From contig RDYN01000033.1 of assembly GCA_004293365.1 (NCBI GenBank), positions 14,696 through 78,695 on the forward strand: a stretch of 64,000 bases of DNA. Direction: 5' to 3'. Origin of the DNA: Oscillatoriales cyanobacterium. Lineage in GTDB: Bacteria > Cyanobacteriota > Cyanobacteriia > Cyanobacteriales > Microcoleaceae. The notes beneath the pieces were generated by a model. The model ran no database searches. It worked only from the letters and a program-made list of their open reading frames with translations, and had not been told where the DNA came from. Shown piece by piece: positions 39,450 to 56,417 of the stretch. The translations under genes were made by a program, and so were the position numbers. Every line of letters begins with the position of its first letter. Positions within the stretch are counted from its first letter, which is position 1.

Positions 39450-40055
39450 TCGGAAGAAATCGATCGCCCACAACGACTAAAATCTAGTAAAATTGCCAAA
39501 AGGTCGATCGACCCCCGCCACGAGGCTATATTTGGATTCAAGGTTTGCTATAACGCTTCGCGTGAGAACCCCGGTCTTTTCCGCAGGGTATGAAACGCAG
39601 CAGCCGTTTGAAGGCTGCCAATAAGATATAATTAATCTGTGGGAAGTAGGCGTATCAACTACGTGTAGAACCAATCCTAGAACGGTGAGATACCGGGCAG
39701 TAAGACACCCTCAGCATTTATGCCTGAGAAAGACTATGGCACAGCCAAGCAATGCAGGATGGGGAGCGTACCGAACTGGCGAAAGTGTTGATGCATTGCG
39801 AAACCACGATCGACTCGAACGTAGACCCAATGGCAGCACTGCAAAGTAGCTGTTCTGAGGTGAGTAGGGGCGCTTTGACTCGCCCCCAGAAACAGAGACA
39901 CTGGTCAGCTAACCGGAAAATATTGAAGCGTGTGAAGTGTGGCTTCAGCCCACGTAGCAGTATCCGTTTAGAATCCCCTCGCGTTTAGGCAGGGGAGAAG
40001 TCAAACTCCAGAAATAGACACATATTAACCTTTGGAAAATCAATAGGCCGGAGCT
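39450..40055 (+). other. Gap with an IS200/IS605-like right-end relic or structured RNA
   Basis: No credible full gene is present. The segment ends in a hairpin (39975-39995, CCCC(T)CGCGTTTAGGCAGGGG) followed by AGAAGTCAA, which resembles the right end of TnpB-bearing insertion sequences; the preceding frame ends RLESPRV, as TnpB C termini often do. The middle (about 39640-39960) contains several short inverted pairs. It may be a tnpB remnant with its omega-RNA region. Group II intron domain V was not found. Confidence 0.4.
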
Positions 40056-40724
40056 ATGACATCCTATGCAACCTCTACAGCAAGAGCCGAGATGAGTGAG
40101 ATCCGGCGCTTGAAAAATATACTGCCCCCAGAACTCCAAAGTTGGGTAACAGTAGAAAAAACAATAGAAGTTAATCCCACCCTAATCCGTAGCGAAGAGA
40201 TAGGCAAAGACCAGGTAGAAATACAGATAGACCTGATCCGCTGGGAACAGCTAGCAATGGATCAGCGCAACCTCCTATTTTGGCATGAAGTCGCCCGCAT
40301 CCAAAACGACACCATCCCCAGAGACGGTTGGGAAATGGCGGCTCTGGCGATCGGTTTAGGCGGCGCCGTCGGCGAACTTTGGGTGCAAGACGGCTTGCTG
40401 CTGGTACTGGCCCTATCTTTGTGCGGCGTCTCCGGCTGGAGACTTTACCAAAAAAACAACGGAGACAAAAGTTTAAAAGAAGCAGTAGACGCTGACGAAA
40501 AAGCTCTCACCCTCGCCACTCGCTTCGGCTACACTCTGCCAAACGCTTATAAAAGCCTCGGTAGTGCCTTAAAAACCTTAATCGAGCAAACCTCCAAAAA
40601 AACTCAACGGGCTAAATACGAAGCTCGTCTCCAGGCCCTGAAACGCAACGCAGCCAAAGCCAAAGCCAAAGTCCAACCCATCAGCCGCGAAACCTCCCAG
40701 TCAGAAAACGTCTACAATTCTTGA
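40056..40724 (+). CDS. DUF3318 protein
   Basis: The 222-residue protein (SEIRRLKNILPPELQSWV start) matches a conserved cyanobacterial family known as DUF3318. It has two central hydrophobic segments (about 103-130), a helical region and a basic Ala/Lys-rich tail. Its function is not known. It stands alone with a perfect inverted repeat just after its stop. Confidence 0.78.
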   Translation: MTSYATSTARAEMSEIRRLKNILPPELQSWVTVEKTIEVNPTLIRSEEIGKDQVEIQIDLIRWEQLAMDQRNLLFWHEVARIQNDTIPRDGWEMAALAIGLGGAVGELWVQDGLLLVLALSLCGVSGWRLYQKNNGDKSLKEAVDADEKALTLATRFGYTLPNAYKSLGSALKTLIEQTSKKTQRAKYEARLQALKRNAAKAKAKVQPISRETSQSENVYNS

Positions 40725-41167: not shown

Positions 41168-42166
41168 ATGGTCAGCCAAACCCCAGAGACAGATTTTCGG
41201 GTTACATACTTGGACGAGATTCCCTCGGTTCACATACCCGTGCGCTTGAGCGTACTTGAAGCCGTAAACTTCAAGACAACCTGCCAGCAACTTTTCTCTG
41301 AAAACACCGTTCCCAGCAAAATTGTCCTAGACTTCAGTCAGACGACATTCATTGACAGTAGCGGGATCGGTGCTTTAGTCAGCAATCTGAAATTTGCCAA
41401 ACAGCGCGGCAGCGACTTGGTGCTCCGAAGCCTCAAGCCACAGGTGATGGCAGTATTTGCTCTCACCAGCCTAGATCAAGTGCTGACAATCGAGCAGCCT
41501 TCTGCAACGTCAACTCCCATAGAGACACACCCCTCCGACAATCAGCTACCGATGACGCATCCCTCGGTGCAGTCGTTGGTGAAACGGGTGATAGATGTCG
41601 TTGGGGCGATCGTCGGTTTGATAATTACAGGAATTTTGTTTGTACCCATAGCGGCAGCCATCACGATTAACGATCCGGGCCCGATATTGTTTGCACAAAC
41701 CCGCTGCGGCTGGATGGGCAGAAGATTTCGGATTTGGAAATTTCGATCGATGTGTACTAATGCCGAAGCCATGAAAGCCGAAATTAAAAACCAAGCTTCT
41801 GGCGCATTTTTCAAAAATGACAACGACCCGCGGATTACCAAAGTCGGACGCATCTTGCGGAAAACGAGTCTCGACGAACTGCCACAGTTTTGGAACGTGC
41901 TCAAAGGCGAAATGAGTCTAGTCGGCACTAGACCGCCTACTCCAGACGAAGTTGAGCGCTACGAAGTCCCTCAGTGGCAGCGTTTTGATGTCAAACCTGG
42001 AATGACAGGCGAATGGCAAGTCAACGGTCGCTCTAAAGTCCGCGATTTTGAAGATGTCATCCGTTTAGATTTAAAATACCAACAAGACTGGAGCCTGATG
42101 TATGACCTGAAACTAATTGTTAAAACCATAACTGTGCTGTTTAACAAAAATAGTGGCGCTATGTAG
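41168..42166 (+). CDS. STAS domain fused to a bacterial sugar transferase
   Basis: The 332-residue protein joins two domains. Residues about 10-105 form a STAS (anti-anti-sigma) domain with the phospho-site motif IDSSGIGALVSN. Residues about 135-332 form a lipid-carrier sugar-phosphate transferase: VKRVIDVVGA, FAQTRCGWMG, WKFRSM, LRKTSLDELPQFWNVLKG, SLVGTRPP and KPGMTGEWQVNGRS. The latter starts exopolysaccharide synthesis on undecaprenyl phosphate. The STAS serine could be phosphorylated by the HATPase protein encoded at 42710. Both domains look complete. Coupling of partner switching to polysaccharide initiation is inference. Confidence 0.88.
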   Translation: MVSQTPETDFRVTYLDEIPSVHIPVRLSVLEAVNFKTTCQQLFSENTVPSKIVLDFSQTTFIDSSGIGALVSNLKFAKQRGSDLVLRSLKPQVMAVFALTSLDQVLTIEQPSATSTPIETHPSDNQLPMTHPSVQSLVKRVIDVVGAIVGLIITGILFVPIAAAITINDPGPILFAQTRCGWMGRRFRIWKFRSMCTNAEAMKAEIKNQASGAFFKNDNDPRITKVGRILRKTSLDELPQFWNVLKGEMSLVGTRPPTPDEVERYEVPQWQRFDVKPGMTGEWQVNGRSKVRDFEDVIRLDLKYQQDWSLMYDLKLIVKTITVLFNKNSGAM

Positions 42167-42302
42167 AGCGGTCAACAACCGATTGCTGAAATTTTAGTTG
42201 CTGTTGATTTCTCGACAGCCGGAACTCGAACTTGATACTTAGTCAAGTAGGCGATCGATCGCGATACTTACGTTAGTATTAAGTGTTAAAATTCACACAG
42301 AA

Positions 42303-42383
42303 AATGTGCATCTATTTACCAGCTCTGCGATCGGAGCATTAATTAGCAATTGGCGAGTTCGAGGTCGTACTCGAATGACTCCA
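42303..42383 (+). pseudogene. Decayed STAS-domain fragment
   Basis: In one frame this stretch reads FTSSAIGALISNWR, close to the FIDSSGIGALVSN motif of the gene just upstream, but the frame is short and stops follow by about 42420. The 543-base gap to the next gene may therefore hold a decayed second STAS gene. The rest of the gap shows no recognised protein. Confidence 0.45.
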
Positions 42384-42709
42384 GCAGGGTTTTCGAGGAC
42401 GACAAGAACTCAGGTGTGTTGAGAAAAGTACCGACTGCTAACACGGTCGAAGCTGAAATAACTCATCGCAAGCTGCTGAGTCGGGAAATTTTCCGATTTA
42501 AACGTCCTACCGAAGCGGGTTACAGTATCGGAAGTCTCTCATTTTCGCGATCGAGTAAATGGTGCGAAAGGAATGCTCACCTTGAGGCAAAACGGGCTTC
42601 TTCAATTCAAGCTTGACTAAACTAATATGTTGCCAAGACCTTGCCCTCCTTTTCCTCTCCAACCTGCGCTGGCTACAGCGGTGGTGGGGGGCGACCAGGG
42701 AGAAGAAAA

Positions 42710-43147
42710 ATGAAAGACGAGCAACCAATTGCCGAGTTTGACCTTCAGGTTACAACAGACCTGAACGCTCTGACACAAGTTTCGGAATGGTTGGAGAATA
42801 TTGTTCTGCCGCTGATACCACAGGACTTGTGGTGGCAGTGCAGCCTGATTGTTAATGAAGGGTTTACAAATGCTGTCCGCCATGCTCACCAGAACTTGCC
42901 CCCCGAGACGCCGATCGACATTGACGTAAAAGTGTTTGCAGACTACTTAGAAATTAGGATTTGGGACAGAGGTCAACCCTTCAACCTGGAATCAAAGCTG
43001 CGCTCGATCCTGCAAGAGCAGCGCGATCCGTTGGATAGAGAAGGAGAAAGGGGACTGGTGTTTATGTACAAGCTCACCGACGAGCTGCACTATATCCGTA
43101 CCGACGATCGCTCCAACTGCCTGGTAATGCGTAAAAACCTTATCTAA
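42710..43147 (+). CDS. Anti-sigma factor-type serine kinase (HATPase, RsbW-like)
   Basis: The 145-residue protein has GHKL ATPase boxes: VNEGFTNAVRHAH (N box), WDRGQPF (G1) and EGERGLVFMYKL (G2), ending DRSNCLVMRKNL. Such proteins phosphorylate STAS partners or hold sigma factors. The ATG at 42710 has GGGAGAAG about six bases before it; an upstream frame start at 42641 is disfavoured. Its likely partner is the STAS-sugar transferase upstream, or the lost STAS copy between them. Confidence 0.83.
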   Translation: MKDEQPIAEFDLQVTTDLNALTQVSEWLENIVLPLIPQDLWWQCSLIVNEGFTNAVRHAHQNLPPETPIDIDVKVFADYLEIRIWDRGQPFNLESKLRSILQEQRDPLDREGERGLVFMYKLTDELHYIRTDDRSNCLVMRKNLI

Positions 43148-43311
43148 GGGCGCGATGCGGGCCCTCCCCTGGGCGGCTTCTGGCGATCGTCGGCAGGGCC
43201 GGGCGCCGCCCCTGCGATGCTCCCTGACACCCAACCACATCCTCTGCAAATCACCGGGTGGACGATGGAGTAGAGGAGCGGCAGGACTATTTGCTTCAAA
43301 ATAAATATATT

Positions 43312-44580
43312 ATGCGTATTCTAATTTATTCCTATAACTACTATCCAGAGCCGATCGGCATTGCCCCCTTGATGACAGAACTAGCCCAAGGCCTAGTCAA
43401 GCGAGGGCACCAAGTTCGAGTCGTCACCGGAATGCCCAACTATCCCCAGCGGCGAATTTATCCGCAATATCGGGGCAAATTTTACCTCACCGAAGAACAC
43501 AACGGCGTCACTATTCAGCGCAGCTACCTGCGCGTCAACGGCCCTCACCCCAGCCTGCTAGACCGACTTTTGCTAGACGGTAGTTTTGTCGTATCCAGCG
43601 CCGTCCAAGCATTCAGAGGCTGGCGTCCCGACGTGATTTTCTCCACAATGCCACCTTTACCGATTTGCGTCCCAGTGGCCTTTTACGGCTGGATTCGCAA
43701 TATCCCGATCGTCCTCAATGTTCAGGATATCGTCTCAGAAGCAGCCGTGCGCGTCGGCTTGGTGAAAAAAAACGGAATGCTAATTAAGATTGCTGACGCC
43801 CTAGAAAAATTAGCCTACAGCACAGCCAGCCAAGTCAGCGTCATCGACAGCGGTTTTGTCAGCAAATTGCACTCTCAGGGAGTACCCCCGGAAAAAATAG
43901 TTTGCGTTCCGAATTGGGTTGATGTGAATTTCATCCGCCCTTTACCAAAAGAAAATAACCCTTTTCGCGAAGCCCACAAACTAAATGGCAAGTTTGTGGT
44001 TCTTTATGCTGGAAATATTGCCCTTACCCAAGGCTTACAAACAGTTGTCAAAGCAGCAGCCCGTTTGAAACACATACCCGAAATTGCTTTTTTAATTGTG
44101 GGGGAATCAACAGCACTGACGCGCTTGCAAAAAGATTGCGAAACTTACAAAGCTACTAATGTAATGTTACTGTCGTTTGAACCGCGAGAAAAATTGCCCG
44201 AAATGTTAGCTGCTGCGGATGTTAGTTTAGTCGTACAAAAGCGCCGGGTAACTAACTTTAATATGCCTTCAAAAATTCAAGTGCTGCTGGCGAGCGGCCG
44301 GGCAATTTTGGCGTCGGTTCCCGAAACTGGTACGGCGCATAAAGCAGTGCAGCAAAGCGGCGGCGGGGTTGTGGTAGCGCCGGAAGATCCGCAGGCTTTG
44401 GCTGATGCTGTTGAGGATTTGTTCTTAAATTGCGATCGGGTGGATGCGTTGGGGGAGCAAGGTAGAAAGTATGCTGTGGAGAATTACGGATTTGAGGAAG
44501 CTTTGAATCATTATGAGGCTTTATTTGCGGCGGTGGCGGCGAGTCATGCTGAGAAAATCTTGCAACCTCTGCCAAAGTAG
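43312..44580 (+). CDS. Family 4 glycosyltransferase (WcaI-like)
   Basis: The 422-residue GT-B enzyme has YNYYPEPIGIAPLM at the N terminus, VVTGMPNYPQRRIYP, FSTMPPLPICVP and a C-terminal donor-binding half with KFVVLYAGNIALTQGL and FNMPSKIQVLLASGRAIL. The N-terminal motif matches colanic acid WcaI-type transferases. It probably adds a sugar to a lipid-linked exopolysaccharide repeat begun by the transferase at 41168. The ATG at 43312 starts the Rossmann fold directly; the frame from 43258 adds 18 unrelated residues. Confidence 0.87.
   Translation: MRILIYSYNYYPEPIGIAPLMTELAQGLVKRGHQVRVVTGMPNYPQRRIYPQYRGKFYLTEEHNGVTIQRSYLRVNGPHPSLLDRLLLDGSFVVSSAVQAFRGWRPDVIFSTMPPLPICVPVAFYGWIRNIPIVLNVQDIVSEAAVRVGLVKKNGMLIKIADALEKLAYSTASQVSVIDSGFVSKLHSQGVPPEKIVCVPNWVDVNFIRPLPKENNPFREAHKLNGKFVVLYAGNIALTQGLQTVVKAAARLKHIPEIAFLIVGESTALTRLQKDCETYKATNVMLLSFEPREKLPEMLAAADVSLVVQKRRVTNFNMPSKIQVLLASGRAILASVPETGTAHKAVQQSGGGVVVAPEDPQALADAVEDLFLNCDRVDALGEQGRKYAVENYGFEEALNHYEALFAAVAASHAEKILQPLPK

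Positions 44581-56193: not shown

Positions 56194-56270
<77 letters not shown>

Positions 56271-56340: not shown

Positions 56341-56417
<77 letters not shown>

Follow-up and report, generated by a model that had tools for sequence, protein, structure and literature searches.

The window analysed here is a stretch of 64,000 nucleotides from the genome of an Oscillatoriales cyanobacterium of the Microcoleaceae (assembly GCA_004293365.1, contig RDYN01000033.1, positions 14,696 to 78,695 of the forward strand). It encodes a protein in which a STAS domain is fused to a phosphoglycosyl transferase (PGT) and, downstream on the same strand, an RsbW/SpoIIAB-like serine kinase. The fusion is widely conserved and its acceptor motif is invariant; it is linked to the kinase gene in half of the cases, the kinase diverges together with the STAS half, and some loci carry complete gene sets that include a phosphatase. 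We regard it as probable that partner switching acts directly on the priming transferase, the kinase, the phosphatase and the STAS domain forming a gate on the enzyme. A module best known for the control of transcription is here suggested to control an enzyme directly.

The STAS-PGT fusion and its conservation

The fusion gene (41168..42166, plus strand) is an open reading frame (ORF) of 332 amino acids, recognised by Pfam STAS and Bac_transf matches, by full-length relatives and by a structure model. The STAS domain occupies residues 26-109 (41243..41494; PF01740, 1.7e-13, and Foldseek) and the PGT domain residues 139-325 (41582..42142; PF02397, 1.5e-66); the latter match spans positions 1-178 of the 179 of the profile and includes the catalytic Asp-Glu pair, as in monotopic PGTs. 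Between the two domains lies a linker with a THPSV junction (41495..41581), in which residues 112-127 have a predicted local distance difference test score (pLDDT) below 50 and H131 and P132 are invariant in alignments of 30 and of 57 rows. The AlphaFold model of the whole protein has a mean pLDDT of 77.9 and a predicted template modelling score (pTM) of 0.62. The motif DSSGIGAL is found at residues 63-70, and its Ser64 (codon 41357..41359) is the predicted phospho-acceptor, a role which we assume from what is known of SpoIIAA and RsbV. The frame, the two domain matches and the position of the motif bear out the earlier note, made from the letters alone, which had described a STAS-sugar transferase fusion carrying DSSGIGAL.

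A profile of 30 relatives, compared with the PDB, aligned in its C-terminal half with WbaP and PglC and in its N-terminal half with TM1442, SpoIIAA and RsbV. Among the best 13 Foldseek rows, the STAS half matched chains of TM1442, SpoIIAA and RsbV with TMt 0.74-0.88; by both the profile and Foldseek the nearest solved structures to the PGT half were WbaP and PglC, which have the same catalytic domain with its Asp-Glu pair (PDB 9s7s, 8t53, 8g1n and 8e37). The STAS half has the RsbV/SpoIIAA-type fold with the D-S-S-G acceptor loop. It just reaches the superfamily model TIGR00377 (53.7 bits, cut-off 53.45) and does not reach the SpoIIAA equivalog model (39.2 bits, cut-off 114.75), and it shares its polypeptide with a second domain, unlike a stand-alone anti-sigma antagonist. 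The best explanation of the fusion is that it represents a predicted priming PGT, which would transfer the first sugar phosphate of a surface polysaccharide onto a polyprenyl carrier. WbaP has other N-terminal domains and PglC has none, and neither contains a STAS domain.

Residue conservation was counted in 119 fusions from a whole-protein search, of whose 141 matches 120 were fetched with long flanks and one (L167) was dropped, having no full-length fused frame. All loci together, including those fetched with a motif pattern, comprise 176 distinct fusions; because 58 of these were fetched with a pattern that contained DSSG, the motif count of 176/176 was left out of the evidence and only the 119 were counted. 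Frame-broken or contig-cut fusions (L193, L220, L225, L237, L246 and L250) were left as they are, and L220, which passed the length filter, is among the 176. D63 and S64 are invariant (119/119), as are D236 and E237 (119/119; 41873..41878), which we take, from the literature on PglC and WbaP, to be the catalytic dyad. Position 65 holds Ser in 113 of the 119 fusions and Cys in the other 6, G66 is Gly in 117 and T59 is Thr in 118. In the 57-row alignment D236 occurs in 57/57 and E237 in 56/57, the locus L234 having Lys in place of the latter.

A full-length fusion is present in 55 of the 59 genomes searched in the family; the other four are G001, G018, G035 and G052, the last of which shows an N-terminal piece where a contig ends. 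In the sample of the phylum, 86 of 386 cyanobacterial genomes match at 1e-92, in 96 rows of which three match the query over part of its length (G229, G149 and G132), and G229 is without an intact fused frame (L167). Among the best 80 of 441 confirmed stretches, the named relatives belong to Microcoleus, Planktothrix, Microcystis, Moorena, Spirulina, Leptolyngbya and Pseudanabaena, and two intact loci were found in metagenome-assembled genomes (MAGs) labelled Thiohalomonas (L239) and gamma proteobacterium symbiont (L247). In L247, judged by eye from the translations, a receiver-like gene precedes the fusion and glycosyltransferase-like genes follow it. A frame-broken fusion (L225) occurs in a MAG labelled Chloroflexaceae.

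The linked kinase gene and its co-divergence with the STAS half

The kinase gene (42710..43147, plus strand) encodes 145 amino acids with a HATPase_c_2 domain (PF13581, 4.5e-24). The earlier note had placed an RsbW-like HATPase gene two loci downstream of the fusion; the gene is present, but it is the next recognisable gene on that strand and not two loci away. The listed TTG start at 42641 is probably too early, and the ATG at 42710 follows a purine-rich stretch and agrees with the relatives. The HATPase_c_2 fold carries the conserved Glu/Asn, D-x-G and glycine box: E50, N54, G88 and G115 are invariant, and D86 is kept in at least 90%, of 36 rows, and all five are invariant in 19 rows. The best solved matches of the structure model (pLDDT 91.8) are SpoIIAB and RsbW, ahead of histidine kinases, and several of these structures come from complexes with STAS partners. 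The curated RsbW models (36.3 bits against a cut-off of 145, and 33.8 against 155) and the SpoIIAB model (26.7 against 135) were not reached, and the protein is therefore called RsbW-like and not RsbW.

A relative of this kinase is encoded directly downstream of the fusion, on the same strand, in 61 of the 119 loci (56/74 outside the family designated f6 and 5/45 within it). Since 55 of 59 family genomes have the full-length fusion and 61 of 119 loci the adjacent kinase, their association is not due to chance. The same arrangement is found in 89 of all 176 distinct fusions and recurs in 11 cyanobacterial families of the sample, so that the reservation made in the earlier note, that the two genes might not be linked in other genomes, did not hold. 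The stop-to-stop frames overlap in 41 of the 89 linked pairs, and 23 pairs have a gap of more than 250 bp, as in the window. At an E-value of 1e-20, kinase relatives occur in 83 of the 86 fusion genomes and in 36 of 300 others, a comparison in which relatedness and genome size are confounding factors. The fusion is carried by all 31 genomes whose kinase reaches 180 bits; the bit scores are partly circular, because the profile was built from linked kinases, and the presence of the fusion is not. In one of the 31 (G153) a nearby contig end limits the view to the C-terminal part of the fusion, next to the kinase; in another (G126) the fusion and the kinase are unlinked.

Kinase divergence tracks the STAS half of the fusion beyond the PGT half. 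For 42 non-redundant pairs, the plain correlation of kinase distance is 0.614 with STAS distance and 0.433 with PGT distance; the partial correlation with STAS distance given PGT distance is 0.487 (0 of 2000 permutations as high), and that with PGT distance given STAS distance is 0.076. Subsets reduced to 25-33 pairs give a partial correlation with the STAS half of 0.34-0.54. The co-divergence is real and smaller than the raw figure suggests, because a control in which the most variable PGT columns were taken given the other PGT columns reaches 0.18 (60 columns) and 0.39 (98 columns); the STAS half given the variable PGT columns retains 0.56 and 0.49.

The raised control is one of several observations that weigh against a gate formed by the STAS domain and the kinase. 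No kinase is adjacent in 87 of the 176 distinct fusions, the family f6 keeps the acceptor serine mostly without a linked kinase (in the proportion given above), and the fusion genomes G072, G132 and G149 have no kinase relative at an E-value of 1e-20. The STAS half evolves faster relative to the PGT half where the linked kinase is missing in four of five distance bins and about equally in the other; the STAS/PGT ratios, unlinked against linked, are 2.2-2.7 versus 0.7-0.8 in the two shortest bins, 2.75 versus 2.68 in the middle one and 3.1-3.4 versus 2.6-2.9 in the two longest, with pairs that are not independent and short bins that supposedly derive from few clades. The arrangement of the domains in the model of the fusion is uncertain at its pTM of 0.62. 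DSSG has a structural role too in STAS folds, and its invariance is therefore no proof of phosphorylation. Finally, the contig of the window has no SpoIIE match, all nine SpoIIE matches of the genome being on other contigs; with no phosphatase gene in the window, the phosphatase would have to act from elsewhere.

The frequent lack of an adjacent kinase would also be expected if the STAS domain served only for structure or dimerisation, in place of the N-terminal part of WbaP/WcaJ-type enzymes, and the kinase were an old neighbour that acts elsewhere. The EPS_sugtrans model, which aligns from the middle of the STAS domain onward (residues 59-328), agrees with such a replacement, and STAS domains have structural roles in SulP transporters. 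However, the sole invariant columns in the STAS half of 30 diverse fusions are D55, T59, D63 and S64, all at or before the acceptor loop, and neither the tracking of the STAS half by the kinase nor a linkage in 11 families fits a mere neighbour. We rate this explanation as distinctly unlikely.

Kinase relatives elsewhere in the genome were found in seven f6 genomes that have no adjacent kinase, at 143-156 bits in L254-L257 and at 127-128 bits in L258-L260. Those of L254-L257 sit in modules of STAS, PP2C and kinase genes, and those of L258-L260 have neither partner beside them. This second recurrent module, comprising a STAS gene, a PP2C gene on the other strand and a kinase, is seen in L254-L257, L261, L263-L265 and L268-L271, and no transferase match was obtained in the fetched stretches around it.

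Phosphatase genes and the proposed control of the transferase

A gene for a PP2C phosphatase, recognised by a profile built from four SpoIIE-type proteins, is present in 18 of the 176 loci. The kinase, an additional STAS gene and the PP2C gene occur together in L140, L145, L150, L151, L156 and L187. In the last of these, from Oscillatoria sp. PCC 10802, the fusion is followed, in this order, by the kinase, a long frame with a PP2C-like domain at its end, and a STAS gene on the opposite strand. A PAS-SpoIIE protein is encoded in L156 and L241, and in L157, L220 and L238 the STAS, PP2C and kinase genes lie in the fusion locus, not directly downstream of the fusion. The locus L150 has a gene order of the exopolysaccharide type, namely, pyruvyltransferase, GT4, Wzx-type flippase, two GT2, PssD-like, PssE-like, STAS-PGT, kinase and STAS protein; beyond the latter, on the other strand, follow a receiver-SpoIIE protein, a hybrid histidine kinase with HNOBA, PAS and GAF domains, and an H-NOX gene. 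By sequence cluster the same order is found in L140, L145 and L151, where the genes scanned were the hybrid kinases of L140 and L145.

The following mode of action is proposed. The RsbV/SpoIIAA-like STAS domain would be the built-in control input of the PGT; the neighbouring RsbW/SpoIIAB-like kinase would bind it and phosphorylate Ser64, and a SpoIIE-type PP2C phosphatase fused to a sensor or receiver domain, whose gene lies next to the pair in some genomes and elsewhere in others, would remove the phosphate. The phosphorylated or kinase-bound state may then gate the transferase, so that a signal would govern the initiation of polysaccharide synthesis with no transcriptional step. If SiaC, SypA and HmpV are a guide, the unphosphorylated form would be the active one and the kinase the off-switch. 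We infer the occurrence of phosphorylation, the residue concerned, and the nature and direction of the effect on the transferase. The broader proposal, that the PGT is the output of a partner switch and that a post-translational gate on polysaccharide initiation, with STAS as phospho-input, is widespread in cyanobacteria, is put forward tentatively, its prospects being a little short of even.

Two outcomes had been envisaged in the earlier note: direct control of enzyme activity, or titration of the kinase by the transferase. The former is favoured by the linkage in 89/176 fusions, the invariant serine, the co-divergence, the phosphatase genes of the complete loci and the absence of a sigma factor gene from the 10 kb viewed around the pair in 14 genomes; the half of the fusions without an adjacent kinase does not fit it. 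In the latter, the kinase would be an anti-sigma factor (SigC-like) for which the STAS domain of the transferase competes, and the amount of transferase would be reported to transcription. Such a role has a precedent in the SpoIIAB-like Slr1861 of Synechocystis, described as binding SigC and phosphorylating several STAS proteins (PMC12329169), and the kinase model resembles anti-sigma kinases. However, in 14 genomes the sequence within 10 kb of the linked pair showed no sigma-70 gene (in one of them, G171, the contig ends 5.5 kb off on one side), the nearest being about 11 kb away in G085, and none was matched on the contig of the window, all ten of that genome lying on other contigs; a sigma factor linked to the module, as in a sigma-factor partner switch, was thus not found in these stretches, though one farther away may exist. 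Nor does titration call for a fusion, whereas the catalytic residues of the transferase half are retained in 119/119 fusions, and in some complete loci a separate STAS protein is available for that role. Titration therefore appears unlikely, and direct control of the priming transferase remains the reading that we prefer.

Other fused or adjacent domains bear on what such control might act upon. In L150 and L165 the genes just ahead of the fusion are PssD- and PssE-like; in L165 the former passes the PssD cut-off and the latter stays below that of PssE. A PssE-like domain (24.1 bits, cut-off 22) is fused ahead of STAS-PGT in L154, and a Pseudanabaena protein of 735 amino acids (L251:2978-5182) comprises GT28-C (PssE-like), Alg14 (PssD-like), STAS and Bac_transf in one chain. 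These arrangements would suit an explanation in which phosphorylation sets the location of the transferase, or its contact with a partner glycosyltransferase (PssDE-like or WcaI-like), and not catalysis. Such partners were recognised in no loci other than these and those of the same sequence clusters, and we consider this explanation to have a slim chance of being correct.

Known partner switches and other features of the window

Partner switching on enzymes is already known. In the SiaABCD system of Pseudomonas aeruginosa, a phosphatase, a kinase and the STAS-like SiaC (DUF1987) are described as directly controlling the diguanylate cyclase SiaD, whose activation is blocked by phosphorylation of SiaC; the same source cites HsbA/HsbD and BgrV/BgrR as further partner switches on diguanylate cyclases (PMC8457831). 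The present system resembles SiaABCD in having an enzyme as the direct output of a phosphatase/kinase/STAS-like set, but there the output is a diguanylate cyclase and SiaC is a separate protein, whereas here the STAS domain and the predicted priming enzyme form one covalent chain.

The polysaccharide locus of Vibrio fischeri encodes the STAS protein SypA, described as a downstream component under the serine kinase/phosphatase SypE (PMC4517449, PMC10120452 and PMC11112999) and as active when unphosphorylated, with a target called unknown (PMC10120452). Both systems combine a STAS protein from a polysaccharide locus with a serine kinase and phosphatase; SypA, however, is a stand-alone STAS protein, and SypE is a response regulator that unites the kinase and phosphatase in one protein. 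HmpUVW of Nostoc punctiforme is a cyanobacterial partner switch with a STAS protein, HmpV, as output; HmpV is described as active unphosphorylated (PMC8256260) and its effector is called undefined or unknown (PMC8256260 and PMC6495340). It differs from the fusion in being a stand-alone STAS protein. In the SigC-Slr1861-Ssr1600 system of Synechocystis, by its description, a cyanobacterial SpoIIAB-like kinase phosphorylates a STAS-type anti-sigma antagonist, the output being a sigma factor and hence transcription (PMC12329169). No description of a STAS domain built into a PGT was found in the literature searched, which covered few subscription journals.

SypA and HmpV are STAS controls of polysaccharide production or of hormogonium development that have no known target in the sources cited (PMC10120452, PMC8256260 and PMC6495340). 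If the proposed control is correct, the priming transferase would represent a possible class of target for both, namely, the priming enzyme of their own systems, and the fusion gives a single-protein system in which a priming enzyme as STAS target becomes testable. It would also provide a handle on the quick switching of slime and biofilm production in cyanobacteria.

The H-NOX gene of L150 (PF07700, L150:14049-14711) adjoins the HNOBA hybrid kinase and the receiver-PP2C gene. Biofilm formation by Vibrio fischeri is under the nitric oxide sensor HnoX, according to reference titles in PMC11112999.

In the gap of 543 bp between the fusion and the kinase (42167..42709), which is present in most close relatives, no gene was recognised, and no plus-strand ORF of at least 90 amino acids was found besides the 5' extension of the kinase itself; one gap ORF of the relative L063, when scanned, gave no Pfam match. 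The gap is single copy in the genome, which rules out a mobile repeat, and a HEARO RNA at 42203-42462 was not accepted, the full-length match being weak (20.3 bits against a gathering score of 83). A frame at 42321-42350 reads SSAIGALISN and resembles the fusion's acceptor loop; an equally high score is reached by 9 of 500 mononucleotide shuffles, and the gaps of relatives mostly score near the shuffle mean for the STAS-like motif. The gap is possibly a decayed STAS copy.

Downstream of the kinase lies a gene for a WcaI-type GT4 glycosyltransferase (43258..44580, plus strand, with a likely ATG start at 43312; NF007640, 3.2e-90, above the cut-off), of whose sequence cluster a member is found near 52 of the 119 fusions. 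The conserved upstream neighbour is a DUF3318 gene (40056..40724, plus strand; PF11780, 2.3e-45), the cluster of which occurs near 77 of the 119 fusions, on the same strand. The stretch upstream of it (39500-40040) has no listed plus-strand ORF and gave no Rfam match at the gathering score; a short GC-rich inverted repeat was noted by eye near its end, and 39560-40040 is single copy apart from a 38-base piece on another contig. Two tandem tRNA genes of equal Rfam score are located at 56194-56267 and 56341-56414.

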